DNA from: Synechocystis sp. PCC 7509 | GTDB lineage: Bacteria > Cyanobacteriota > Cyanobacteriia > Cyanobacteriales > Chroococcidiopsidaceae | Length of the DNA stretch: 64,000 nucleotides | Assembly: GCF_000332075.2 (NCBI RefSeq) | Contig: NZ_ALVU02000001.1 | Location: forward strand, 868,001-932,000 | Reading direction: 5' to 3' | Shown: one piece after another, positions 9,525 through 20,751 of the stretch | Layout: each line of letters opens with the position of its first letter | Position numbering within the stretch: position 1 is the stretch's first letter | The notes under the pieces: model-generated | What the model saw: the letters and a program-made list of their open reading frames with translations, nothing else | What the model was told of the DNA's origin: nothing | The model's database searches: none | Position numbers and translations under genes: made by a program

Positions 9525-9574
9525 AATGGAGAATAGGAGACTCGAACCCCTGACCTCTGCGGTGCGATCGCAGC
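9525..9574. other. attL: displaced 3' half of tRNA-Ala
   Basis: These 50 bases are identical to 20677-20726. They correspond to the tRNA-Ala(CGC) sequence from the anticodon arm to the 3' end plus two flanking bases. The sequence beyond 9574 no longer matches the tRNA, as expected for the element side of a tRNA-integrated attachment site. Confidence 0.9.
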
Positions 9575-9631
9575 CCGAAACGGTGTAAGACCCTTTGTAC
9601 CGTAGTCCTTTGACAGCCTAGCATCTCATTC

Positions 9632-9652
9632 TTGCATAAAAAGTTGCATAAA
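9632..9652 (+). repeat. Integrase arm-type repeats, left end
   Basis: Two copies of TTGCATAAA at 9632-9640 and 9644-9652, spaced 12 bases, directly before the integrase start. Three more copies lie near the right end (20587, 20598, 20609). Spacing close to one helical turn and presence at both ends of the element fit integrase or excisionase arm sites. Confidence 0.65.
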
Positions 9653-9654
9653 GA

Positions 9655-10806
9655 ATGAGGGAAATTCAAGTTAGAAATAACAACGGGCGCTGCCTAATTA
9701 GATTCAATTTTGGGGGACGATCACATAGTCTCACATTAGGCAATTACACAGATAAGGTAGACAGGGCTAGGGCTGAGGCATTAGCTAGTAAAATTTATGC
9801 TGACTGCCTCGCGGGAAATTTCGATCCAACTCTAAGCAGTTATAAGCCTATATCTTTCAGCGTTGCCAGACGACTCGCGGACAGAGCGATCGCACAGGTG
9901 AAGGAGATTAAAGCAGAACAGTGGGAGCTAGTCACTAATTGGGGCAAGTTTGTTGAGTTCTCAAACCTGACTGAGAGGCAATACACTAACCACTGGAAAC
10001 CAATTACGATAATGCTTGCCAAGTATGGTAAGCCGATTACTTTAACTGAAGTGCCTAAATTTATCTCATGGATGAACTCTAGATTGTCCAGTAAAACAGT
10101 TAACGATCGCTTGTCCTACTTGCGTAAATGCTGTAAGTGGGCAATTACTCAAGGAATAATGACTACCAACCCCTTTGAAGGAGTTAAAGCGCAAAGGGCT
10201 AGAGCTAAACCAAAGCCTAAGCCATTTAGTAAAGAGGAAATTGGGCAAATCATTATTGCCTTTGAGAACTCCCGTTACTATTCCCACTACACCGATTATG
10301 TAAAGTTCCTCTTTGCCACAGGGGTAAGGACATCAGAGGCGATCGGGCTGCGGTGGAAACATATCAGTTTCAGTCGGGAGGAAATAGAAATATACGAGGT
10401 TATGGCTAGGGGTGATGACGGTAGTTCATCTCATAGAGTAAGGAAAGGGACTAAAACAGAGAACTTAAGAGCTATCCCATGCAAGGGGAAATTAAAGGCT
10501 ATGCTCCAATCGCGTAAAGATTCCACTATCAATCTCAAACCTGACGATCTAGTATTTCCTTCCCCCACAGGGACAACTATTGACGATAACAACTTTCGCG
10601 ATCGCGCTTGGAGAAAAATACTGGATGAGGTGGGAATTGAATACCGACATCCCTACATCATGCGACACTCGTTTATCTCCCACATGGTAGAAGATGGTGT
10701 TCCCCTTACTGGCATTGCTTACATAGCAGGTCACAGGGATACTACAATGATTCAGAAAACTTACGGACACATGATTAACCGCCCTGATCTACCCGACTTA
10801 CTTTAG
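9655..10806 (+). CDS. int: Tyrosine recombinase / phage-type integrase
   Basis: 383 residues. An N-terminal arm-binding region with a beta-type RCLIRFNFGGRSHSLTLG segment is followed by a SAM-like core-binding domain (about 85-185) and a catalytic domain. Catalytic residues seen: Arg225 (ATGVRTSEAIGLRW), Arg337 (YIMRHSF), His360 (AGHRD) and nucleophile Tyr370 (KTYGHM). The usual His three residues before the second Arg is Tyr334. It lies about 80 bases inside attL and should integrate the element into the tRNA-Ala gene. An arm-type repeat (9644-9652) ends 2 bases before its ATG, so integrase may repress itself. A strong hairpin follows. Confidence 0.93.
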   Translation: MREIQVRNNNGRCLIRFNFGGRSHSLTLGNYTDKVDRARAEALASKIYADCLAGNFDPTLSSYKPISFSVARRLADRAIAQVKEIKAEQWELVTNWGKFVEFSNLTERQYTNHWKPITIMLAKYGKPITLTEVPKFISWMNSRLSSKTVNDRLSYLRKCCKWAITQGIMTTNPFEGVKAQRARAKPKPKPFSKEEIGQIIIAFENSRYYSHYTDYVKFLFATGVRTSEAIGLRWKHISFSREEIEIYEVMARGDDGSSSHRVRKGTKTENLRAIPCKGKLKAMLQSRKDSTINLKPDDLVFPSPTGTTIDDNNFRDRAWRKILDEVGIEYRHPYIMRHSFISHMVEDGVPLTGIAYIAGHRDTTMIQKTYGHMINRPDLPDLL

Positions 10807-10840
10807 GGGGGTAGCGAAGTCATATCGCTCAACCAATGCT

Positions 10841-10881
10841 CAACCCAAAATTTAGGTAACATTTTCCTAAATTTTGGGTTG
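10841..10881. terminator. Hairpin after integrase, between convergent genes
   Basis: Perfect 16-bp arms, CAACCCAAAATTTAGG (10841-10856) and its complement (10866-10881), with a 9-base loop. It separates the integrase from the convergent small gene at 10908 and probably ends transcription in both directions. Confidence 0.75.
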
Positions 10882-10907
10882 CTTTGAAAGAGGTGATTGT
10901 AATTTTT

Positions 10908-11126
10908 TTAGATAGGACACAAAATCTTTTTGTCATTTCTAGCCAATTGATCTAGGTCTTTTTCTGACCAATTCTCTAGCCAGTCGCCATCTACATCTTC
11001 AACGAACTGACTGATTCCATCTACACCTAAAGTTTGGCGACTTTCCCTTAAAGCTCTTGCCTTTTGGAGAGCTTCTCTAGCTTTACCAATTGTTTGGGCG
11101 CGTTGTTCTTTCGTTTGAGTGGTCAT
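10908..11126 (-). CDS. Small hypothetical protein of the element
   Basis: 72 residues, charged and helical (TKEQRAQTIGKAREALQKAR), with an acidic C-terminal half. It starts 14 bases after the stop of the 232-residue gene upstream, on the same strand, so the two probably form an operon. No family is recognised. It could be a small partner of the upstream protein. Confidence 0.6.
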   Translation of the reverse strand: MTTQTKEQRAQTIGKAREALQKARALRESRQTLGVDGISQFVEDVDGDWLENWSEKDLDQLARNDKKILCPI

Positions 11127-11140
11127 CTTGACCTCACGAA

Positions 11141-11839
11141 TTATCTAATAGTTAATTGATGATAGCACTGCTCAGGTAATCTGTCACTATGCGTTAGTGC
11201 ATACTGTGCAATTTTAACATCCACCTGTATTTGACTGGGATTATAGCTTATAAATATCCCACGTCTAATACTCCAATGTTTTAAAGTTTTCTGCCATTGA
11301 CTTTGTTTATCGGTGGATAGAGCATCTCTGACGGTTGTTATTTGAACGCAAAGCGGAATTTGTTGGCTTCCAGAGGCGATGAAGTCTGTTGACATTGATA
11401 AATCGGCAATAAATGGGTTTAGAGTTTCACCACCGCAGTTTTTTAGTTTTGAACAGACTTTATTAATGAAAGCAGCATCCTTTCCTTCAAAGTTCCCTGC
11501 CATCAGATTTTCCTTCCAAATGTGTAGCTTAGGATCTTTTTCATTAAACCAAGCCGGAAACAACTGTAAATACCAATACATCTCTAGCGTTGATAATTCA
11601 GCAAGTTCAGCGCTTTTGTCTTCTTCAGAAAGTAGTTGAATACTGAGCCAAAAGGTTGAATCTTCTATTAATTCTTGAAGTAACTGCATGACATGGCTTT
11701 TACTCCTCAAAAGACCGGACTTTTTTTTAACGATCCAACGGCTCATTTCATCTAGTTTAGATGCTAATTCAGGCGATACATCTTTTGAGTCCTGAATTAA
11801 TTGAACTAGGTCAGACTTAACATCTTCTGGATTTCGCAC
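11141..11839 (-). CDS. Hypothetical protein, element cargo
   Basis: 232 residues from a GTG start at 11839 with a GGAG ribosome-binding site 5-6 bases upstream. The N-terminal half is helical and rich in Lys and Glu. The C-terminal part reads ADLSMSTDFIASG, IPLCVQITTVRDALST and LKHWSIRRGIFISYNPS, a beta-rich arrangement with Asp and Gln in positions reminiscent of PD-(D/E)XK nuclease cores, but I cannot assign the fold. It forms a two-gene unit with the downstream 72-residue gene at the left end of the element, where such elements carry accessory or defence cargo. The function is unknown. Confidence 0.65.
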   Translation of the reverse strand: MRNPEDVKSDLVQLIQDSKDVSPELASKLDEMSRWIVKKKSGLLRSKSHVMQLLQELIEDSTFWLSIQLLSEEDKSAELAELSTLEMYWYLQLFPAWFNEKDPKLHIWKENLMAGNFEGKDAAFINKVCSKLKNCGGETLNPFIADLSMSTDFIASGSQQIPLCVQITTVRDALSTDKQSQWQKTLKHWSIRRGIFISYNPSQIQVDVKIAQYALTHSDRLPEQCYHQLTIR

Positions 11840-12515
11840 ACTACTCCTACAAGTAAGGTATTACGCCTACAATTAATCAGTTTTCACTATAGAGTTAAAC
11901 TGCCAACGCATGAGTAGGAAAGAAATACACTAATTTGACTCCGGCTAGTATAACCTCAGAAGGAGTCAAATTAAGCCAATCACGAAAACTGGTTACTAAT
12001 TGGGTGATTGCTTGCCAAGTTAACCCTCGATGGAAAACTAAACAAATTAACTCAGCAAAACTATTGTTAGTGTACGTATAGTCAGTTGTAATCGATATAG
12101 GATGATTCAGTAGAAACAACAGCGAGAGTTAATCAACAGAGTCAGCGAGAGACGAGCTACTGAGGGGAGAAGGAACAGGAATGTGACGGTTTACTCACAT
12201 TAGTTGGGTGCGATCGGTTGTAACCCACGCGAGGGGCGGAGGGGAGGACATTATGAAGTCCTGCTCAGACATTTGTGATGGAGATTTGGCGGGAGAGGCG
12301 TAGGGCTGGATTTTGGGTTGCCGAGTTATGTGTCCGGTTTCGCGAATAGAGATGGTGTGGGGATTTGAGCCATTAGCAAGCGTTAAGGGGGCTGTTAGGG
12401 CGCGTGAATAGTGGTAGTAAGTGACGGACAAACTTTTGAAAGATCCGGCAATTTTTGGCACGATCCGGCAAAATATGTTACAATATGTAGTATATCTGTA
12501 GCACGGAGTTCACCC
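11840..12515. other. Element intergenic region with direct repeats and a promoter
   Basis: Apart from the doubtful 74-codon frame, no gene is seen. The right part holds a direct repeat GATCCGGCAA at 12442-12451 and 12462-12471 (20-base spacing, two helical turns) and AT-rich sequence (12475-12500) just before the operon start at 12516. This fits operator sites overlapping the promoter of the downstream three-gene operon. Confidence 0.5.
11895..12119 (-). CDS. Possible small protein
   Basis: A 74-codon frame from TTG 12119 with a plausible globular composition (FRDWLNLTPSEVILAGVKLV). The start codon is weak and no convincing ribosome-binding site is seen, so it may not be expressed. No family is recognised. 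Confidence 0.25.
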   Translation of the reverse strand: MFLLNHPISITTDYTYTNNSFAELICLVFHRGLTWQAITQLVTSFRDWLNLTPSEVILAGVKLVYFFPTHALAV

Positions 12516-12689
12516 ATGACGTTAGATTTTTACTTTGGTTCTATGAAAAAGATTGCCGATAAATTCAATACGACAATCGCAATTGTGTCAGATGTGCAAG
12601 ACGGCAAAAGCGTTCCAATAGGGACTGACGTTGAGGGCATATTACAGGAGCTAGTTAATGCTGACTTACGCTGGGAAATTTACGCATAA
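12516..12689 (+). CDS. Small protein, first gene of a three-gene operon
   Basis: 57 residues from ATG 12516, chosen because ACGGAG lies 8 bases upstream; an in-frame extension to 12411 has no such site. Sequence MTLDFYFGSMKKIADKFNTT, then a predicted helix (VEGILQELVNADLRW). No family is recognised. Its stop overlaps the next start (TAATG), indicating coupled translation with the HTH protein, so a regulatory or partner role is likely. Confidence 0.55.
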   Translation: MTLDFYFGSMKKIADKFNTTIAIVSDVQDGKSVPIGTDVEGILQELVNADLRWEIYA

Positions 12690-13423
12690 TGATTAAGGGG
12701 ACTGAGACTACTTGGAGTAATTTGTCTGAAACGATCGCTATCCTAGGGATCTCGGATCGTACTCTGAGGCGCTACGCGGCATCAAATCGCATCAAGACAC
12801 TCAAGATCGGCAGACAGCTATTTTATGATGTTGAGAGTTACCAAGAGGAACAATTAGAGGCGGCTACTGAAGCTGATACCTTGGTTAAAACCAGCTTTGT
12901 TGCCGTGGTTTACGATTCTAGAAAAAACCCCGATAATACAATACCTGGACTGCGGACGATCTGCCGCCCTTCATTTACGGCGATGATTCCGGGTGGGGTG
13001 CAACAACTGTATGACGGAAGTTTTGGGAAAGTGTGGAAAACTGCTACTTTCTGTGTAGGTTCAAATCTCGACTTTAGGATGCCGGCGGGCAGTGGTCTTA
13101 TTTTAAGCGAGGATTGGAACGCGATCGCAATTCAAGGGGCGATCGGTAGACTAATTGAAGCTGGAGAACTTCAAGTCTTCTTGCCAGTTGCGGAGGAATT
13201 TGGGGCAAGTTTTCGCGCATACAGTCAGGATGATGCTTTATCTCTAGTTAAGCAGTGCTATGAGTTCTTGAGCTTGGAAAGATATGCTTTAAACGAGGAC
13301 AGGCGAGTGGTGCGGGCAGCGATAGAGGATAAGAGGGAAGAAATTAGCAAAGCTGTAACTAGAGGTCGGAATCTTGGGATTAATGACACCGATTCTGATA
13401 GGAATTACAGAGGTGCTGCATAG
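12689..13423 (+). CDS. Excisionase/MerR-like HTH protein with unknown C-terminal domain
   Basis: 244 residues. Residues about 8-55 (WSNLSETIAILGISDRTLRR, then IKTLKIGRQLFYD) match the winged-helix DNA-binding form of excisionase-family and MerR-type proteins. Residues about 65-185 form an unrecognised domain with conserved-looking FRMPAGSGLILSED and ending near EFGASFRAY. A charged helix follows. It is coupled at both ends by overlapping stop-start codons (TAATG at 12687, TAGTG at 13421). Likely roles are element regulation, replication initiation or excision control; none is proven by sequence. Confidence 0.65.
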   Translation: MIKGTETTWSNLSETIAILGISDRTLRRYAASNRIKTLKIGRQLFYDVESYQEEQLEAATEADTLVKTSFVAVVYDSRKNPDNTIPGLRTICRPSFTAMIPGGVQQLYDGSFGKVWKTATFCVGSNLDFRMPAGSGLILSEDWNAIAIQGAIGRLIEAGELQVFLPVAEEFGASFRAYSQDDALSLVKQCYEFLSLERYALNEDRRVVRAAIEDKREEISKAVTRGRNLGINDTDSDRNYRGAA

Positions 13424-13635
13424 TGAGTAGTGCAAGTGGTGCAGAAAAATTAAAGGCTATTTATAGCGCTCAAGCAGAAAAGGAAATGGAAAAACTCAGG
13501 TTACTTGATGCTAAGAGAGAGTCTAAAAGGCAGTCGGAGCGGGATAAGACCAAGAACGCTACAAAGGGGCTGATTCCAAATAACAAACGAACGCACAATA
13601 ATTTGCAATTCGCGGATATCTTCAAAAGCGAGTAA
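13423..13635 (+). CDS. Small basic protein, last gene of operon
   Basis: 70 residues from a GTG start overlapping the previous stop. It is strongly charged with a Lys/Arg/Glu helix (EKEMEKLRLLDAKRESKRQS), then a polar tail ending NLQFADIFKSE. No family is recognised. The operon ends in a hairpin terminator about 30 bases later. It may be an adaptor or a DNA- or RNA-binding partner of the HTH protein. Confidence 0.55.
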   Translation: MSSASGAEKLKAIYSAQAEKEMEKLRLLDAKRESKRQSERDKTKNATKGLIPNNKRTHNNLQFADIFKSE

Positions 13636-13667
13636 ACAGATTTTCTCTTTTCAGGGGAATTAAAGAG

Positions 13668-13703
13668 CCGCCTTCTCCGTTTTCAGGAAGGCGGTTTTCT
13701 TAT
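13668..13703 (+). terminator. Rho-independent terminator of the HTH operon
   Basis: Arms CCGCCTTC (13668-13675) and GAAGGCGG (13687-13694) are followed by TTTTCTTA. It lies 30 bases after the last gene of the operon. Confidence 0.85.
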
Positions 13704-13750
13704 GGTGACGGAGGAGGATAGTAACAACTCTGTTCAACGATGGGGTTAGG

Positions 13751-13803
13751 TTTCAAAGGCAGTTCTCACAAAAATGCGAGAACTGCCTTTGAAATGGTTT
13801 TTT
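13751..13803. terminator. Bidirectional terminator hairpin
   Basis: Perfect 17-bp arms, TTTCAAAGGCAGTTCTC (13751-13767) and its complement (13778-13794), followed by TGGTTTTTT. It separates the operon from the convergent LRAT-like gene. Confidence 0.8.
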
Positions 13804-13857
13804 CTATTGAGTGTGATCAGAAGTAGTTGGTACGGTTAAGCATCCGATGTAATGTTT

Positions 13858-14364
13858 TTATGCTGTCATGCAAGCTCTTTCAACTACTTCCTGAGCATAT
13901 CCGTTGTGTTCCCATGCACCTGTTACTGCTCCAGCAACACCTACAATAAAAAAACCTAGAACGGGAATCTGTTGCAACTTTTTAAACTCAGCAATCTGGT
14001 AGCATCTACAATCTCCTGTTGACACGAGCCGCGCCCAATGTTCGCAATTGAAGCGATATAAATCATAATCCCAGTTTTCATGAAACTCTTTTATAGATGC
14101 GTGTAGCGACTTGTTGATCTGTTCTTTTTGCTGATGCCGTGCTTGGTCAGGTTGAAAGTGACTCCAATCAATAGACCAAATTGCCAGCCGCCCCGTATCT
14201 TTTTCCCTACCAGCGCGGGTAGGCTCCCACGCTAAAGAATCCAAATCGTTGAGTTGTATAGAATAATGAAAAGTATTGGGGTTACTATAATCACGGTGCT
14301 GAAGTAATCGTCCGTAGTGTGGATGAGAAAGATTACTATCAATTAGCTGATGAAGGGTTGACAT
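13858..14364 (-). CDS. LRAT-like (NlpC/P60-fold) protein with C-terminal membrane segment
   Basis: 168 residues. The motif FNCEHWARL (near residue 112) matches the catalytic NCEHF-type motif of LRAT-domain proteins, a permuted papain-like fold with nucleophilic Cys. The upstream HYSIQLND, near residue 33, could supply the catalytic His. A hydrophobic segment (IPVLGFFIVGVAGAVTGAW) near the C-terminus suggests membrane anchoring, as in eukaryotic HRASLS-type acyltransferases. The length is on the short side. Activity on lipids (acyltransferase or phospholipase) is inferred from the family. It stands alone in its orientation inside the element, as cargo genes do. Confidence 0.65.
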   Translation of the reverse strand: MSTLHQLIDSNLSHPHYGRLLQHRDYSNPNTFHYSIQLNDLDSLAWEPTRAGREKDTGRLAIWSIDWSHFQPDQARHQQKEQINKSLHASIKEFHENWDYDLYRFNCEHWARLVSTGDCRCYQIAEFKKLQQIPVLGFFIVGVAGAVTGAWEHNGYAQEVVERACMTA

Positions 14365-14567
14365 AATTTAGCTGCTCAAGACTTGACACATTTCCTCTCT
14401 AGCTTTCCCAACTGGAGAGCAAAATATAACTTGAAACTAGCCTCTATGTTCAGACATCTTAATTTTTGACCTTTTAAGCAGGGTATTTTTATTGTTACTT
14501 AGAGTGCCAACGGATGGACTCGCCCTGTAATATTTGCCGAACCAACGTACTACACAAGTTTAGTGTC

Positions 14568-14584
14568 ATACGTGCATTGACATA
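14568..14584 (+). repeat. 17-bp direct repeat, copy 1
   Basis: ATACGTGCATTGACATA occurs here and at 18274-18290, outside coding sequence in both places. The two copies bracket the regulator, primase-helicase and origin module of the element. Confidence 0.8.
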
Positions 14585-14834
14585 TTTTCCGACAAATTGA
14601 CATAATTGCCGTCAATTGTACAGCGCGGTAGAGGGGCAAGTGCAATCGCGTTTGGGCAAAAGTATTTGATAGCAGCCCCTACCTGTTTGTCCCCCGTTTG
14701 TCGCCTGTCCGTTAACCCTAAAGAGCGATCGCGAGTTGGAATATTAAGGGGAGACATAGAGTAGTTAACCCTTGCCAGAGTGTGCAGTGTGGGAGGAGTG
14801 CGATCGTATTTAGAGGGTCAAGTGGGGTAAGTCA

Positions 14835-14870
14835 TAAACGTACTACATTTACTTATCTGTAGTACGTTTA
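14835..14870. promoter_or_regulatory. 13-bp inverted repeat, candidate operator of the RHH regulator
   Basis: TAAACGTACTACA (14835-14847) and its perfect complement (14858-14870) flank a 10-base AT-rich centre. A third half-site (AACGTACTACA) lies at 14544. Ribbon-helix-helix repressors bind paired short sites, and such a gene starts 160 bases downstream. The link is inference. Confidence 0.55.
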
Positions 14871-15031
14871 TACGTGACTTGGAAACAGAATTAATTATTC
14901 AGTGTAATAACGGTGGATAGATTGTGAAGTAATGCTTTTAGGGTTTATTTTTAGACAATAAATCCGTAGTTTCCCCCTTTTTTACATAGCCTTAAAAGGG
15001 TAGGATTGTAGCATACCAAAGGAGGAAAACA

Positions 15032-15277
15032 ATGCTGAATAAGCGGGGTAGAAAACCCAAGCCTGATGGAGAAGTCCGCAAAAGACAAATGAATGTAGCG
15101 CTAACAGAATATGAGAAAGAAGCCTTTGATGAGTTGGCTATGAGCAGGGGTACGACAGTTTCAGAAATGGCAAGAGGACTAATATACCGCGAGTATAAAG
15201 AAGACTTGCGTAAAAACCTACTTTGTCACAGGTACGTCATGCAGCTAAGAGAGCGATCGCATTTAGAGGCAGTGTGA
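15032..15277 (+). CDS. Ribbon-helix-helix type regulator
   Basis: 81 residues from ATG 15032 with an exceptionally strong ribosome-binding site (AAAGGAGG). After a basic tail (KRGRKPKPDGEVRKRQ) comes MNVALTEYEKEAFDELAMSR, then TVSEMARGLIYREY, matching the CopG/Arc beta-helix-helix pattern with the strand contacting DNA. It is probably the copy-number or transcription repressor of the element. It precedes the primase-helicase gene by about 150 bases and follows an inverted-repeat operator candidate. Confidence 0.7.
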   Translation: MLNKRGRKPKPDGEVRKRQMNVALTEYEKEAFDELAMSRGTTVSEMARGLIYREYKEDLRKNLLCHRYVMQLRERSHLEAV

Positions 15278-15423
15278 AGCCTAATTAACAAATAACAACT
15301 AACTGACCGATGCGAGTGAAGTCATAAAAAGCAAAAGACAGGTTAGCCGCCTGTCTCTCGTAAAACTTAATGTAGAAAATTCAATTGTTTCCTTTAATAC
15401 GCCACAGAAGCGTTAATTTAATT

Positions 15424-17775
15424 ATGAACCCACTGAAGACAAATGACAAGACCGTAGATGTGATCGCACTTGGAGAAGAAACCTCTAGTGATCCTAGTAT
15501 AACACAGAACACCCCTAATCTCCCTGTAGTTACCGTAGATTCAGTTGAGGAGATTCGTTGTACGTCACTTAATGATAAACACCGGAAAGAGACTATAGAG
15601 GGTAGCTGTGTGTCTGAAGCGATCGCACAGTCAGCATTCTTTACTACAAATCGAGAGTGTGATGTAGTAGATTACCTCAGACGTAAGGGAGGGGGCAAAG
15701 TAGTAGGAGAGTATGGGGGTGAGCAGATAACAGACTTAAGCTCAGGTTGGGCTGTACACTGTGTTATTCCTTATACGGGTAAAGTAGATACGTTAGCAGG
15801 ACAGTTTAAACCCGATCACCCCTCACCAAAGTTAGATGAAAACGGTAAGCCAAAGTTAGGTACGGACGGTAAGCCCAAGGTAAATAAGTACCTTTCCCGT
15901 AACGGTGGAGGTACGCCAATGTTCCTAAGAATGCCAGATGAGAATTATTGGAGAGGTGTAATAGATGAGGAGGGTGAGAAACAGCAACCAATCTTTATCA
16001 CTGAGGGAGCTAAGAAAGCAGGAGCTTTATTGACTCTTGGCAAAGCTGCTATTGCCCTCCCAGGTGTTGATAACACGCAGGATAAAGAGGACAAAAAGGA
16101 GCTACACCAATATATCTTTGACTTCCTGAATCCAGGTAGAACAGTGGTCATTTGCTACGATGCAGATCAACACACGAACCCCGGTGTAAAGAGAGGATTG
16201 CGGAAATTGGTGAGGAGACTCAGAAAGTTTGAAGGGGTGACAGTTAAAAACTTACCCCTACCTAATGACCCTGAAGCTAAAGGTGTAGATGATTTTGTCA
16301 AAAAGCACGGCGCAGAAGCTCTGGAGAGATTGATCGCAAACGCAAAGGAGTGGGGAAGTAGTGAAGTTGAGGAATGGGAATTTAAGGAAGGGGACACAAC
16401 AATAGAGGTCGCCTTTACTGAGGCTTGGAAGGATAACTATGGGAAAGATTATAAGTTAACTAAGAGCGGCTGGATACATAGAGGAGAGACGTACTGGAAG
16501 CACATAGAGGAAAGGGAAATGAAGCAAAGAGCGATCGCACTCCTAGAAAAGGCATACGAATATAGAGAGAAGGTGGGCAACAAGTTTGTATTTGCTTCTA
16601 CAGCAAATCTAAATAACTGTTGGACGTACCTGCACAACAAAATATGTGAGGAAGTGAAAGAGGACTACTCAGGCATTGCTTTTAACAACGGCTACTTAGA
16701 CCTTGAGACTAGAGAGTTTGGTGAAGTAGCAGAGAGTAAGATTAGTCTCCATGGTGTAGATTACGATTACGATCCAAGCGTGAACGAATGCCCACCGATG
16801 TTCTTACGCTTCATTGAGTCATCCTATGGTTTAGACCAACTAGAGTCAATACGGGCTTATACCAGTTGGGTAATTGACACTACAGCCCCCTGGAAAAACT
16901 TTCCTTTCTTACTGGGCAAAAGCCAAAGTGGTAAATCGGAATTACTGAAGGTTTGGGTGAAGCTGTTGCCAGAAGGGGCAGTAAGATCAGTGTCAAACCC
17001 AAATGAATTGAGTAAGGAGGAGGGAAGACAAAAAGTAGTAGGTAAGCGAATGTATACCGTGGGAGACTTCACTGGGCATATTCCTGACCTAGGCGCGATA
17101 CTTGAGATGGTGAATAATCACCCCCTGACAATCAGAAAACTGTACAGTAGTGACTCACCCTCGATCAAACTCTACTGTCGGTTAGTCTTTGCAGCCGTGG
17201 ATGTACCAAGACAGAAAGGTACAGCAGGCTGGGATAAGCGCGTAAACTACATCACAACTAAAGACTTTGTAGACAAGCTACAGCTACCCCTTGGTATGAA
17301 GTTAGAGGATGAGTTAGCTAAGGAAATACCAGCGATCGCATCTTGGGCGATCAACATGGATAGAGGCGTAAGGGATATGTATCTGGAAACGAAACTAAAT
17401 AAGAACGCCCATGATGAAGCTGAGAAAGACAACAACATCTATGCTCAATTCTTATCTGAGGAGTTTGTCGCAGCAGAAGACAGTGAGCATTTAATTGATA
17501 TTGCCTCTCTATTCCGTCCTTTTCTCGCCTATGCAAGTTACAAAAATCAAGGAAAGGACATTAAGCAAGGATCGTTTGTTAAGGGCTTCAGAGCGCTGCT
17601 TGATAAAAAGAATAGAGTAACTGACAGAGAACACAACGTGAGGATAGGGGGCAGATTAACAGGAGTAGAAAGGATTGTCAAAGGTTTAACACTGGAAGAA
17701 CCTAAGCGTTTTAATGAAAGACAGCCTGGAATGTGGGAGTACGATCCTAACTACACCTCACACCATAAAAAATAG
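15424..17775 (+). CDS. Primase-helicase: DUF3854 TOPRIM-like plus SF3/D5-type ATPase
   Basis: 783 residues from ATG 15424; an in-frame TTG at 15385 has no better support. Residues about 185-310 form a TOPRIM-like domain: Glu194 (FITEGAKKAG) and Asp246/Asp248 (VVICYDADQH), ending in a VDDF motif. Residues about 400-650 form a D5/VirE-like helicase: Walker A GKSQSGKS at 498-505, then Walker B-like and sensor segments (MYTVGDFTGHIP; RLVFAAVDVPR). This layout is used by phage satellites, integrative plasmids and prophages to start their own replication. The predicted origin lies immediately downstream. Confidence 0.85.
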   Translation: MNPLKTNDKTVDVIALGEETSSDPSITQNTPNLPVVTVDSVEEIRCTSLNDKHRKETIEGSCVSEAIAQSAFFTTNRECDVVDYLRRKGGGKVVGEYGGEQITDLSSGWAVHCVIPYTGKVDTLAGQFKPDHPSPKLDENGKPKLGTDGKPKVNKYLSRNGGGTPMFLRMPDENYWRGVIDEEGEKQQPIFITEGAKKAGALLTLGKAAIALPGVDNTQDKEDKKELHQYIFDFLNPGRTVVICYDADQHTNPGVKRGLRKLVRRLRKFEGVTVKNLPLPNDPEAKGVDDFVKKHGAEALERLIANAKEWGSSEVEEWEFKEGDTTIEVAFTEAWKDNYGKDYKLTKSGWIHRGETYWKHIEEREMKQRAIALLEKAYEYREKVGNKFVFASTANLNNCWTYLHNKICEEVKEDYSGIAFNNGYLDLETREFGEVAESKISLHGVDYDYDPSVNECPPMFLRFIESSYGLDQLESIRAYTSWVIDTTAPWKNFPFLLGKSQSGKSELLKVWVKLLPEGAVRSVSNPNELSKEEGRQKVVGKRMYTVGDFTGHIPDLGAILEMVNNHPLTIRKLYSSDSPSIKLYCRLVFAAVDVPRQKGTAGWDKRVNYITTKDFVDKLQLPLGMKLEDELAKEIPAIASWAINMDRGVRDMYLETKLNKNAHDEAEKDNNIYAQFLSEEFVAAEDSEHLIDIASLFRPFLAYASYKNQGKDIKQGSFVKGFRALLDKKNRVTDREHNVRIGGRLTGVERIVKGLTLEEPKRFNERQPGMWEYDPNYTSHHKK

Positions 17776-17803
17776 ACCGTTGTGGTAAACGCTTGTAGCT
17801 GAT

Positions 17804-18177
17804 ACAAACATCCGACAAGTCACGTATACTGGTACAAAATACTGGTACAAAATAAATCAGCTACAAGCCTTACCATGCAAAAATTTCAGTCCTAAACGTC
17901 GTAGAATGGTACATTTTGATTTTCATTCTGTACCAGCTACAATGTAGACACAGTAGGTAGCCTAGTTTTTTTGGTACAATGGTACATTATTTAAAGAGAA
18001 AGTATATATAAAAAGAGTAAAGAGAGTATATCCTGTAGAAACTTTTAGAGAATTATTCTGTACCAGGATACATGATACACCTGTAAGCGCTACTGTACAT
18101 ACAATGTAGCTGGTACATTTTTGATTTATTTTGTACCAGTATTTTGTACCAGTATACGTGACTTGTCGGATGTTTGT
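17804..18177. other. Putative replication origin: 56-bp inverted repeat with TGTACC sites
   Basis: A perfect 56-bp inverted repeat (17804-17859 and 18122-18177) encloses 262 bases. The hexamer GGTACA or its complement TGTACC occurs ten times between 17831 and 18150 (17831, 17844, 17908, 17929, 17973, 17981, 18059, 18112, 18132, 18145). A 70-base A/T-rich tract at about 17985-18057 lies in the middle. Repeated short sites, an AT-rich core and a position just after the primase-helicase gene are the hallmarks of an initiator-bound origin. An operator/centromere or a transcription-attenuation role is the alternative. Confidence 0.65.
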
Positions 18178-18273
18178 TATTGTTGACCTTTCCACTGCTA
18201 CAACGAGTCATTTCTTCCCACAAAGCGATCGCGATTACACTCCCCCGCTAACTATCCCTCACGTTGTAACCGT

Positions 18274-18290
18274 ATACGTGCATTGACATA
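18274..18290 (+). repeat. 17-bp direct repeat, copy 2
   Basis: Identical to 14568-14584 (ATACGTGCATTGACATA). It lies 97 bases beyond the right arm of the 56-bp inverted repeat. Confidence 0.8.
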
Positions 18291-18666
18291 CAAGACATTC
18301 CACTGTCGCAGCTATAGTGAGTAATTCTGACTCCGCGTCAAACCTTTGAGTGCTTTTTCCCTAAAAAATTGACTGAGCAACTTATGATCTTTACGATTGT
18401 TTTCGCTACTCAAGTTACCTTAAATCTAAAACTTCTATCTGGCAACTGAAATACGTCTAGTTCGATGTCACCCAAAAGAATAATTGCCCTCACAGCTTTT
18501 TGAGTGTCGTTAAATTGTCTTGCTTACTTCAAATTATAAACAGTTGTTAAAAAGGATACGCAAATATCCCGCTATTCAGTTCTAACTTAGCTACATCTGC
18601 ATATCAACGAAAATACTAAAAAACCACTCGATGTTTCCCTAAGTGGTTCGCAAAACTAACACTTAA

Positions 18667-18957
18667 CTACTGGTAAAACTCCTGCTCACACTGCTTATAA
18701 ACTCGTTCCCTTTCTCGCGCATTCTCCTCCCCAATTTCAGCTAACACATAATACTGCCTGTCCCCTGCACGAGCCATCCTAGATTTCATTCCAAATTCCC
18801 GCCAAGTTTTAGCAAGGGATGAATTATACCGTTGCTCAAAACAGTCACTAGCATATATAGCCTTACGCTCCTCTATCCGCATTTCTTGCATAGCATAAAG
18901 TCCTGATACAGTAACTACTCCAATGATAATTAGAGCGGAAATCCTACCATATTTCAT
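18667..18957 (-). CDS. Small single-pass membrane or exported protein
   Basis: 96 residues. The N-terminal hydrophobic stretch (SALIIIGVVTVSGLYAM) after a short basic start is a signal anchor or signal peptide. The rest is soluble, charged and contains two Cys (YASDCFEQ and YKQCEQEF) that could pair outside the cytoplasm. No family is recognised. It is within the right part of the element. Confidence 0.55.
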   Translation of the reverse strand: MKYGRISALIIIGVVTVSGLYAMQEMRIEERKAIYASDCFEQRYNSSLAKTWREFGMKSRMARAGDRQYYVLAEIGEENARERERVYKQCEQEFYQ

Positions 18958-19100
18958 GTTTTGTTTTCTGTACTAAATTATTCTTAATATACTTGCACGT
19001 TTTTACACCGTCAATACCTCAGACCCGTCAGGGTTACTTACGTCAGTAAAGCTTTGTGTCTGCGTTAGAAATTCTGATTAAAACTCATTATTTAAGTGCG

Positions 19101-19571
19101 CTACTTTTTGGCTTCTAAATCCCTGGTTCTACCTTCATCTTTCCAACTTGTAGAACGTGCTGCAAAAATAGCACCACAAACAGCAATAAACCCGCCTGTA
19201 TTGGTATATGTACTTTTTGCACTAATTGCACCGATATTGTAAGTACGATCTAACCCAAACGAGCCAGATGATACCGTCGGATCGTAAGTTAGCCCGATTC
19301 CCATCATTGCACCACCTAAGATAAGTAGAAACCAACCAAAGCCGTGCGTAGGGTTATTTACGCTTTGTGCGCCAGTTATGGTAGATGCTTGGTTATTTGA
19401 TGTTGACCTTACTTCTGAGCTTAAGCCTTGCTCCTTCGTCTCGTCAGAAACTAATGCACTTTTGGGCTGATCGCTCCATCCGCACTTTTTACAAACTATT
19501 CTTCCTGTTGCATAGCGAAGGGGTAGCACAGATGTACATTTCGGACAGTTTTCTGATTCAGACAATTTCAT
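19101..19571 (-). CDS. Zinc-ribbon membrane protein
   Basis: 156 residues from ATG 19571, chosen because GAGG lies about 7 bases upstream; a further in-frame start at 19583 lacks one. The N-terminus is a zinc ribbon (CPKC at residues about 10-13 and CKKCGW near 28-32). A polar linker follows, then two hydrophobic segments (GWFLLILGGAMMGIGLTY and GGFIAVCGAIFAA) that probably cross the membrane as a hairpin. The function is unknown. Confidence 0.6.
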   Translation of the reverse strand: MKLSESENCPKCTSVLPLRYATGRIVCKKCGWSDQPKSALVSDETKEQGLSSEVRSTSNNQASTITGAQSVNNPTHGFGWFLLILGGAMMGIGLTYDPTVSSGSFGLDRTYNIGAISAKSTYTNTGGFIAVCGAIFAARSTSWKDEGRTRDLEAKK

Positions 19572-19830
19572 AAAATACCTCACTTAGCTTTAACTTGCGT
19601 TGATGGCTCTCTATCTGCTAATTGCAGTATTCCCAAACTAAAGTCACATCTAACTAGGTTCATCAGTTTTTCTATAAAATTCTCAGCTTATTTCCCAGTT
19701 GATACTGTTGTGATTTATATGTTGTACGCGATCGCTCCCGACTCGCGTAGTCTCACTCTTGACGCTGACTAATCCCTTAAGCCAAATTAGAGTCGTCAAC
19801 AGAACAAACTACCCACACTCAATTGGTTAA

Positions 19831-20583
19831 ATGGGTACTTTGCACCACTGCACTCAAAATGTAGCGTCCCTTCCTATGTCTTCTACAACCCCAACTCTCA
19901 CCCAAATTCTAGCCAACAGTGCAGAAAGAGAGAAACTAGAACAACGCCTATGGGCAAAGGTAGAGAAAAGCCCTGATAGTCATTGTTGGCTGTGGACAGG
20001 GAGTAAGAACAAAAGCGGCTACGGCGCGATTAAAGTAGCCGGGAAGCCTCTACAAGTACACAGAGTAGTCTATGAAATGTCTTATGGAATTATACCTAGC
20101 GATCACTTTGTCAGACATCGCTGTGATAATCCCTCGTGCTGCAATCCGAAGCACCTCAAGTTAGGGAGCAACCAAGATAACGTAGACGACCGGACGCTGC
20201 GGGGGAGATCCGTTAAAGGGTCTAAACAGACTACTGCCAAACTAACCGAGTACGAGGTTGAGGAAATTATTAGGGAATTACAGGGGAGTTTTATCACTAC
20301 TCAGGCGATCGCCCAAAAGTACGGGGTAGTTAGATCCGTTGTAAGTAGGATTAACACGGGTAAGTCTTGGACTCATGTTAGCCCCCACTTGAGTAGACCG
20401 ATACGCCCCTACGATCTCCCTAGAGGGACACCAGACGCTAAATTGAATGTTGACCAGGTTAAGGCAATTCGTCACCGCTACAACCTCGGTGAGAAGCAGT
20501 GTGACTTAGCTAGAGAGTTTCAAGTGTCCCTCAGTGCAATTTCTAACTTAGTCAATTTCCAGACTTGGGCGGGTGTCGTTTGA
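19831..20583 (+). CDS. HNH endonuclease with C-terminal HTH repeats
   Basis: 250 residues, or 235 if ATG 19876 is used. Residues about 50-115 hold an HNH domain: CWLWTGSKNKSGYG, VHRVVYEMSYG, then RHRCDNPSCCNPKHL, typical of phage HNH homing-type nucleases. Two helix-turn-helix-like segments follow (TTQAIAQKYGVVRSVVSRI and KQCDLAREFQVSLSAISNL), suitable for specific DNA binding. It is the rightmost gene, ending 4 bases before the integrase arm repeats. Roles could be homing, exclusion of competitors or a passenger; the sequence does not decide. Confidence 0.8.
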   Translation: MGTLHHCTQNVASLPMSSTTPTLTQILANSAEREKLEQRLWAKVEKSPDSHCWLWTGSKNKSGYGAIKVAGKPLQVHRVVYEMSYGIIPSDHFVRHRCDNPSCCNPKHLKLGSNQDNVDDRTLRGRSVKGSKQTTAKLTEYEVEEIIRELQGSFITTQAIAQKYGVVRSVVSRINTGKSWTHVSPHLSRPIRPYDLPRGTPDAKLNVDQVKAIRHRYNLGEKQCDLAREFQVSLSAISNLVNFQTWAGVV

Positions 20584-20586
20584 AGC

Positions 20587-20617
20587 TTGCATAAACCTTG
20601 CATAAAAGTTGCATAAA
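20587..20617 (+). repeat. Integrase arm-type repeats, right end
   Basis: Three copies of TTGCATAAA at 20587-20595, 20598-20606 and 20609-20617, exactly 11 bases apart (one helical turn), about 60 bases inside attR. They match the two copies next to the integrase gene. Confidence 0.7.
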
Positions 20618-20676
20618 AATACGGATATTAGGTTAATCTAGACAGGTATAAACCGTGAGATGCTGACGCTCTAAGG

Positions 20677-20726
20677 AATGGAGAATAGGAGACTCGAACC
20701 CCTGACCTCTGCGGTGCGATCGCAGC
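20677..20726. other. attR: attachment site inside tRNA-Ala
   Basis: The 50-bp repeat identical to 9525-9574. It covers the 3' half of the intact tRNA-Ala gene from the anticodon arm to just past the discriminator base. The HIP1 octamer GCGATCGC lies within it. Confidence 0.9.
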
Positions 20727-20751
20727 ACTCTACCAACTGAGCTAATTCCCC
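20679..20751 (-). tRNA. tRNA-Ala (anticodon CGC)
   Basis: 73 nucleotides fold into a complete cloverleaf: acceptor GGGGAAT/ATTCTCC with the alanine identity pair G3-U70, D arm GCTC/GAGT, anticodon stem CTGCG/CGCAG with loop ATCGCAC (anticodon CGC), T arm AGGGG-TTCGAGT-CTCCT, discriminator A; the CCA end is not encoded. It reads GCG codons. Its 3' half is the integration target of the adjacent element and is restored by the element end, so the tRNA stays functional. Confidence 0.95.

Follow-up and report, generated by a model that had tools for sequence, protein, structure and literature searches.

An element integrated at tRNA-Ala in Synechocystis sp. PCC 7509 and its plasmid-like replication module

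The 64,000-nucleotide stretch of Synechocystis sp. PCC 7509 considered here (the window; bases 868,001–932,000 of contig C1 in a 4.91-Mb genome of four contigs) contains an 11.15-kb segment that lies between two copies of part of a tRNA-Ala gene and carries an integrase at one end. An earlier reading of the letters alone, which we call the original prediction, took this segment for a compact integrative element with its own origin module and no virion genes, and proposed it as an undescribed class of satellite- or plasmid-like replicon. What kind of element is it, and is it new? That it is a tRNA-Ala integrative element is confirmed. We consider it probable that it is an integrative plasmid-like element, that is, a tRNA-type genomic island with its own replicon, and it is a known kind of element whose combination of parts looks little described.

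Ends of the element and its tRNA target

The element lies between the copies of a perfect 50-bp direct repeat, which are 100% identical and have a spacing of 11,152 (Table 1). Repeat search and ARAGORN agree on these boundaries, as originally claimed: ARAGORN places an intact tRNA-Ala with anticodon CGC over the right-hand copy, so the repeat is the 3′ part of this gene and the left-hand copy a displaced fragment. A tyrosine integrase had been placed next to one end, and its gene indeed starts 80 bp inside the left copy; read by eye, the frame holds residues that we take to resemble the usual R-K-R-H-Y set.

Just inside both ends lie copies of TTGCATAAA, which occurs five times on the plus strand of the window and never on the minus strand, with two copies at the left end and three at the right. 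Any 9-mer present at least twice in each 150-bp end was found in 0/2000 dinucleotide shuffles of both ends, which upholds the claim of arm-type repeats at both ends. The placement of TTGCATAAA is as expected of integrase arm sites, for which these copies are good candidates. A similar repeat stands upstream of a 58%-identical integrase adjoining tRNA-Val (locus L026 in genome G196; G and L numbers are our labels), and a related right end adjoins the same tRNA-Ala in a genome of the same genus (G174). Positions 20584–20676, once considered as the end of an insertion sequence, were dropped as such when the arm repeats there were recognised.

The same tRNA-Ala has received other insertions. A second, partial copy of it is present in seven of the 18 other family genomes (G017, G067, G102, G119, G161, G186 and G199; the copies in G067 are on different contigs, and in two further genomes, G196 and G198, the tRNA itself had no good match). 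These partial copies and the window overlap at 20711–20720, judged from BLAST spans and, for the 5′ copy in G186, from the exact repeat, and this overlap falls within the anticodon stem-loop (20709–20725). On this evidence the tRNA-Ala is an integration hotspot used by other insertions. In another genome of the same genus (G195), a VapE-type helicase is encoded near this tRNA-Ala.

The fragment that the window element leaves is of the 3′ kind. Islander, which describes anticodon-centred sites, lists a 3′ tRNA fragment for 3760 islands and a 5′ one for 159 (PMC4383910), making the former the commoner kind; the rare 5′ kind is represented by a 26-kb element in G186. That element (L058/L169; G186:C1:4764117-4790584) occupies the same tRNA-Ala, where the native 5′ half is what stays in place, the reverse of the situation in the window. 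Its repeat is about 111 bp long with a one-base slip, and it encodes a tape-measure protein.

Relatives of the integrase are common in the family, with 60 matches at E 1e-15 or better in 16 of 19 genomes. When 31 of these 60 places were combined with two further loci (L067 and L068), 24 of the 33 matches lay no more than 600 bp from a tRNA, compared with about 2% by rough estimate; without three loci that had been collected through their tRNA (L144, L146 and L147), the count is 22 of 30. A first scan of genome contigs with the integrase gave no match.

The element has a G+C content of 42.5% and a HIP1 density of 1.08 per kb, near the host values of 40.5% and 1.29 per kb, and its left flank differs from sister genomes. 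Both observations would suit an immobile relic, an old island that is unable to excise. However, the 50-bp repeat is perfect although one copy lies outside any working gene, the integrase frame is open, and arm sites are present at both ends. Together these features suggest that there has been no long decay, and we hold a relic to be improbable.

The replication module and its relatives

The largest protein of the element (796 aa) matches both DUF3854 (TOPRIM-related) and D5_N over their cut-offs, and has a P4-type helicase region that scores 47.4 bits against TIGR01613 (E 1.1e-12; cut-off 108.7). Directly after its gene lies a putative origin, in which a large inverted repeat with 56-bp arms (17804–17859 and 18122–18177) encloses a smaller one. 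The 8-mer CTGGTACA occurs seven times in the window, always within 17829–18152, and 200 shuffles of the element gave no 8-mer in more than three copies per 330 bp. The origin-like repeats of the original prediction therefore stand. The inverted-repeat and iteron signals are not independent, because six of the seven CTGGTACA copies fall within the arms of the two inverted repeats.

A further inverted repeat precedes the gene for a ribbon-helix-helix (RHH)-like protein upstream of the primase. The 13-mer TATACGTGACTTG at this site, 163 bp before the RHH gene, recurs in the window only in both arms of the large inverted repeat, suggesting two linked cis sites around the RHH–primase module.

We compared the neighbourhoods of 17 related primase genes, taking 1.2 kb each way and no shuffle control. 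An iteron-like cluster lies downstream of the primase in five of them (window, L057, L058, L060 and L069) and upstream in none, and a perfect inverted repeat of at least 18 bp lies downstream in four (window, L058, L060 and L062). These positions are suggestive of an origin after the primase gene but fall short of proof.

Across the order, DUF3854 proteins are found in 145 of 195 genomes, and matches to the window primase at E 1e-20 or better in 15 (its own included), at 16 places. The stretches around all 15 other primase places were retrieved; four of them contain a related integrase (L057, L058, L067 and L068), with tRNA-derived repeats at the last three. We set L057 aside as a tRNA-linked element: it encodes both an integrase and a primase, and the 49 kb searched contain no tRNA-linked repeat. 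The best sister element is L067, from another family of the order: a 10.1-kb unit at tRNA-Arg with a 65-bp repeat, an integrase and a DUF3854/D5 protein. An 8-mer confined to its ends occurs twice at one and three times at the other (counted without shuffle control). Scanning seven of its 11 open reading frames (ORFs) against PHROGs gave no convincing virion family; a coiled-coil-like protein has marginal matches that include a scaffold and a spanin family.

The other two tRNA-linked relatives differ from L067. At tRNA-Phe in G013, L068 has a 93-bp repeat, spans 21.3 kb and contains a virion structural family, and the 26-kb L058 contains the tape-measure protein mentioned above. Phage structural genes in both weigh against a uniform virion-less class. 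They also bear on the possibility that the window element is the remnant of a larger prophage that has lost its virion genes, a history for which these two integrase- and primase-bearing relatives at tRNA genes could serve as the model. Against this history, the modules of the window element look complete and its arm sites are matched at both ends, its 17 ORFs include no virion fragment, and its primase stands elsewhere in the tree than the primases of L058 and L068. Such a remnant therefore seems quite unlikely.

Beyond these places, a genome scan gave 44 named loci, ten of which have an integrase-like match, two of them with a tRNA beside the integrase (L190 and L201). A quick maximum-likelihood tree of 29 primases was built from the window, 16 retrieved loci and 12 named loci out of the 44, omitting L201 for its short primase ORF. 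Eight further proteins share a branch with the window primase (SH-aLRT 97), among them plasmid proteins of Crinalium and Nostoc and the chromosomal, integrase-linked L057. Two members of this group, L060 and L063, agree in length and match position with complete Nostoc and Crinalium plasmids. Of the two halves of the original ‘satellite- or plasmid-like’ label, we favour ‘plasmid-like’ over ‘satellite’ because the primase kin include plasmid proteins.

On the tree, a tRNA-linked integrase occurs in six rows, a distribution that takes four changes or more, and the window primase stands apart from the five others. Rows with the tRNA-linked label show mild clustering (25 of 500 shuffles scored as low); the figure for independent pairings is therefore a minimum-change count and no proof. 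Taken at face value, tRNA integrases and replication proteins of the plasmid type have been paired more than once, and the set of elements is, to judge by this tree, not one new lineage. Nor does a single lineage share the gene set: the helix-turn-helix (HTH) protein described below is unmatched in 387 other genomes, and the primase sits apart as described. The prediction had also named related genomes with the same genes and no tRNA linkage as evidence that would speak against it. This is partly what is seen, with plasmid proteins among the nearest kin of the primase, and it does not refute mobility.

A search of IMG/VR with the single primase gave no match, and one with the primase alignment gave 57 diverged relatives with 24–39% identity, mostly over the TOPRIM part. 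Named relatives of the replication and accessory proteins of the element are mostly cyanobacterial. One relative, L184, is on a contig filed under a Tatlockia metagenome-assembled genome; its primase is very close to that of the cyanobacterium Aliterella, and the contig may be misbinned.

Gene content, possible helpers and mobility

Ten ORFs of the element were scanned against Pfam, NCBIfam, PHROGs and PADLOC and seven more small ones against PHROGs, five of the 17 being probably not genes. No virion, terminase, relaxase or conjugation family was convincing in these scans, in agreement with the original statement that no capsid, terminase, tail or conjugation genes are seen. The cargo is by and large that of the original prediction: the DUF3854/D5_N primase-helicase and the HNH_3 endonuclease score over cut-off, and the HTH_17-like, RHH-like and LRAT-like assignments fall below.

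Table 1 Features of the element and its tRNA target (window coordinates)
Feature	Coordinates	Strand	Evidence
Displaced 3′ part of tRNA-Ala(CGC), attachment (att) copy at the integrase end	9525–9574	−	100% identical 50-bp repeat
Two candidate arm-type repeats TTGCATAAA (9632, 9644)	9632–9652	+	Repeat count, shuffle control
Tyrosine integrase, 383 aa	9655–10806	+	PF00589 80.9 bits, E 1.2e-22; phrog_1 E 3e-51
72-aa protein, downstream neighbour of the 232-aa gene	10908–11126	−	ORF; no convincing family
232-aa accessory protein	11141–11839	−	About 40% identical proteins on Chondrocystis and Anabaena plasmids; partial match, Calothrix plasmid
92-aa protein, first in coupled operon	12411–12689	+	Last base is first base of next gene
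244-aa HTH_17-like protein	12689–13423	+	PF12728 26.4 bits (cut-off 27); phrog_66 excisionase E 0.0009
70-aa protein, third operon gene	13423–13635	+	One-base overlap with 244-aa gene
168-aa LRAT-like protein (cargo)	13858–14364	−	PF04970 E 0.0046, 17.7 bits, cut-off 24.3
14-bp perfect inverted repeat (14834–14847/14858–14871) and 13-mer TATACGTGACTTG at 14869	14834–14881		Repeat search
81-aa RHH-like protein, upstream of primase	15032–15277	+	Weak RHH/NikA/Arc-like matches, all below cut-off
796-aa TOPRIM-like (DUF3854) and D5/SF3 primase-helicase	15385–17775	+	PF12965 92.3 bits, E 2.9e-26; PF08706 E 7.3e-7
Putative origin: 28-bp inverted repeat (86%) inside a 56-bp perfect one, seven CTGGTACA iterons	17804–18177		Repeat search, counts
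96-aa protein	18667–18957	−	ORF; no PHROG
160-aa protein, zinc-ribbon-like N terminus	19101–19583	−	phrog_8032 E 3.4e-9 (unknown function); zinc-ribbon matches below cut-off
250-aa HNH endonuclease	19831–20583	+	PF13392 (HNH_3) E 1e-13, over cut-off
Three candidate arm-type repeats TTGCATAAA (20587, 20598, 20609)	20587–20617	+	Repeat count, shuffle control
Second att copy, inside the intact tRNA	20677–20726	−	50-bp repeat
Intact tRNA-Ala(CGC)	20679–20751	−	ARAGORN; likely crossover in anticodon stem-loop (20709–20725)

The 244-aa HTH protein is the middle member of three genes with one-base overlaps between neighbours. Its HTH_17/excisionase-like part is at the N terminus, and it also matches the PADLOC HTH model mads_1 weakly (E 2.1e-4) and the terminase-small-subunit family phrog_57 over the HTH region only (E 0.0021), slightly less well than phrog_66. 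It is possibly an excisionase, that is, a directionality factor, or else a regulator. No relative was found in 387 other genomes of the class (388 were searched, and the sole match was the window itself), nor any match among plasmids or phages, where the LRAT-like protein likewise had none. A fold model of the HTH protein from its single sequence was uninterpretable (pLDDT 38). The RHH-like protein matches the mobilisation protein NikA family PF21983 below cut-off (E 0.0054). The genes flanking the element, named by reading their ORFs, encode a 235-aa HAD-like and a 116-aa cytochrome c-like protein.

The same genome holds two further replicons or islands of note. A second element with an integrase and a VapE helicase lies at tRNA-Pro(CGG) (L070:2209-10776, G000:C1 about 3376208-3384775); it is 8.5 kb long, has an 89-bp repeat and contains a transposase gene. 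We rejected it as kin from the same branch, its VapE-type helicase having no DUF3854 match, and regard it as a cousin in layout only; in the primase tree its end branch is longer than that of the window.

Contig C4 (86,542 bases; L309–L312 and L315) encodes a large terminase subunit (TerL) that shares 52% identity with its counterpart in Synechococcus phage S-CBS4. Its first 80 kb contain 52 ORFs of at least 150 aa, and the 28 proteins scanned include integrase and primase families; no capsid, portal or tail family was among the best 25 of the 40 families matched. C4 is possibly a phage-plasmid, and it is conceivable as a helper for the element. Separately, a weak terminase-like stretch (E 7e-6) at L308 (G000:C1:2421429-2421881), about 8.2 kb from an integrase adjoining tRNA-Tyr/tRNA-Thr, may mark a prophage remnant.

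A helper of this kind would matter most if the element were a phage satellite, able to replicate on its own and relying on a helper phage for packaging in the manner of the minimal PICMI satellites. The small island does combine the same three functions (integrase, AlpA-type HTH and primase), and three of the profiles given for PICMI in PMC10803314 (PF00589, PF12728 and PF19263) match here, two of them below cut-off. C4 encodes a phage-type TerL in the same genome, and the best phage matches of the integrase are to Planktothrix and Leptolyngbya phages. Set against this, the element has no terminase, capsid-remodelling or packaging gene that we could find, and C4, given its family matches, is not a proven working phage. 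Packaging DNA common to the element and C4 was considered and rejected, as their DNA similarity (three matches) is no higher than that of chromosomal controls (one to three); at the protein level they share only an integrase match of 30%. The primase kin are partly plasmid-borne, and the IMG/VR relatives are diverged as given above. We regard a phage satellite as rather unlikely. A bolder version would be a cyanobacterial minimal self-replicating satellite, in which tRNA integrases have time and again taken up plasmid replication modules that resident phage-plasmids, perhaps C4 here, spread; this we offer as a distinctly doubtful idea.

An integrative plasmid-like element remains our preferred account, and several points weigh against it. 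Excision, replication and transfer are deduced from sequence together with knowledge of the family. No empty site with both flanks was found in sister genomes, and the left flank was not beside this tRNA in the genus stretches examined. Six other tRNA-Ala sites lack TTGCATAA in the 1 kb on their 3′ side. Since motifs differ between integrases, this absence is no proof that the sites are empty, and one of the six (G195) has the VapE-type gene nearby. In the uncontrolled comparison of primase neighbourhoods, 12 of the 17, the sister L067 included, have no iteron-like cluster within 1.2 kb. In the Nostoc plasmid L060, iterons and an inverted repeat follow the primase, but a protelomerase-family protein is encoded as well; the repeat there may have some other role and gives weak support for an origin. 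The HTH and RHH assignments are both below cut-off. Finally, the nearest row of the tree is only 27% identical to the window primase, which has a long end branch (1.43), leaving its exact place in the tree unsure. Of the plasmids with a related primase, the 17.5-kb L316 of Nostoc sp. UHCC 0870 encodes a protelomerase-family protein, though it is listed as circular.

If the plasmid-like account is right, the integrase would recombine the two att copies at the anticodon loop of the tRNA, probably assisted by a small factor, with the HTH_17-like protein as first candidate, and a functional tRNA would remain after excision. The primase-helicase would start replication at the iteron and inverted-repeat region just downstream of its gene, with the RHH-like protein and the upstream palindrome controlling the primase-helicase. 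As no transfer machinery was found, passage between cells would need help, from a phage, a conjugative plasmid or DNA uptake. The element would then reintegrate at tRNA-Ala, bringing its LRAT-like, HNH and other accessory genes.

Comparison with known systems

Our literature searches of open-licence PubMed Central, mostly with strict terms and judged by title and start of abstract, found no paper on this combination of parts. They also found no dedicated study of cyanobacterial satellites, only mentions of tycheposons and, in other papers, of cyanobacterial satellites; according to one review, satellites have come to light in Cyanobacteria and Actinobacteria (PMC11389934). Should a helper phage be demonstrated, the element would count as a minimal satellite, and the phylum is one from which these searches turned up no dedicated satellite study. 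Plasmid-type DUF3854/SF3 proteins apparently became linked to tRNA integrases several times, which hints at how plasmids and chromosomal islands trade parts in cyanobacteria, and the wide occurrence of DUF3854 proteins in the order suggests that elements of this sort may contribute to genome variation unnoticed. For practical use, a tRNA-directed integrase whose arm sites are clear could be developed into a tool for integrating DNA.

‘Undescribed class’ was too strong a term, as islands with a regenerated tRNA and a displaced fragment have long been described (PMC4383910). The element resembles these Islander tDNA islands in its internal tyrosine integrase, regenerated tRNA, displaced 3′ fragment and anticodon-centred site; a plasmid-type replication module, present here, is not part of the Islander definition as that account describes it. 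Tycheposons, as summarised in PMC10872708, have a tRNA at the border and a tyrosine recombinase and span 4–200 kb. The window element shares the first two and is within the size range, and is set apart, on that secondary description, by being small and without nutrient cargo.

Among plasmids, those of Crinalium PCC 9333 and Nostoc spp. encode a related DUF3854/SF3 primase-helicase (about 25–30% identity over part), whereas the element here is integrated at a tRNA and has an integrase and candidate arm sites. DUF3854 is also shared with CyRepA plasmid replication proteins, in which PMC10079941 describes a C-terminal DEXDc helicase; here a D5_N/SF3-like part takes its place. The element differs from integrative and conjugative or mobilisable elements in having no relaxase or mating-pair genes among the ten ORFs compared with Pfam and NCBIfam, bar the sub-threshold NikA-like RHH match, and from temperate phages in that no virion or packaging genes were found, only the weak match to a small-terminase family over the HTH.

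P4 combines a primase-helicase with an iteron-type origin, a layout like that of the element. The helicase region resembles the P4-family model, below its cut-off as given above, and no PHROG for capsid-size or late-activation genes, which we take to mark P4-like satellites, was matched by the 17 ORFs.

The closest functional parallel is PICMI of the Vibrionaceae, which, as described in PMC10803314, likewise has a core of integrase, HTH-type protein and primase and no capsid genes. For its AlpA-type protein (PF05930 or PF12728), PF12728 falls just short here and PF05930 is not among the matches; for its primase (PF13148 with PF19263), PF13148 is not among the matches and PF19263 scores 17.1 bits against a cut-off of 27.6. 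PICMI uses the fis site and another primase type (PMC10803314), whereas the element described here has settled in tRNA-Ala with a primase whose kin reach into cyanobacterial plasmids.

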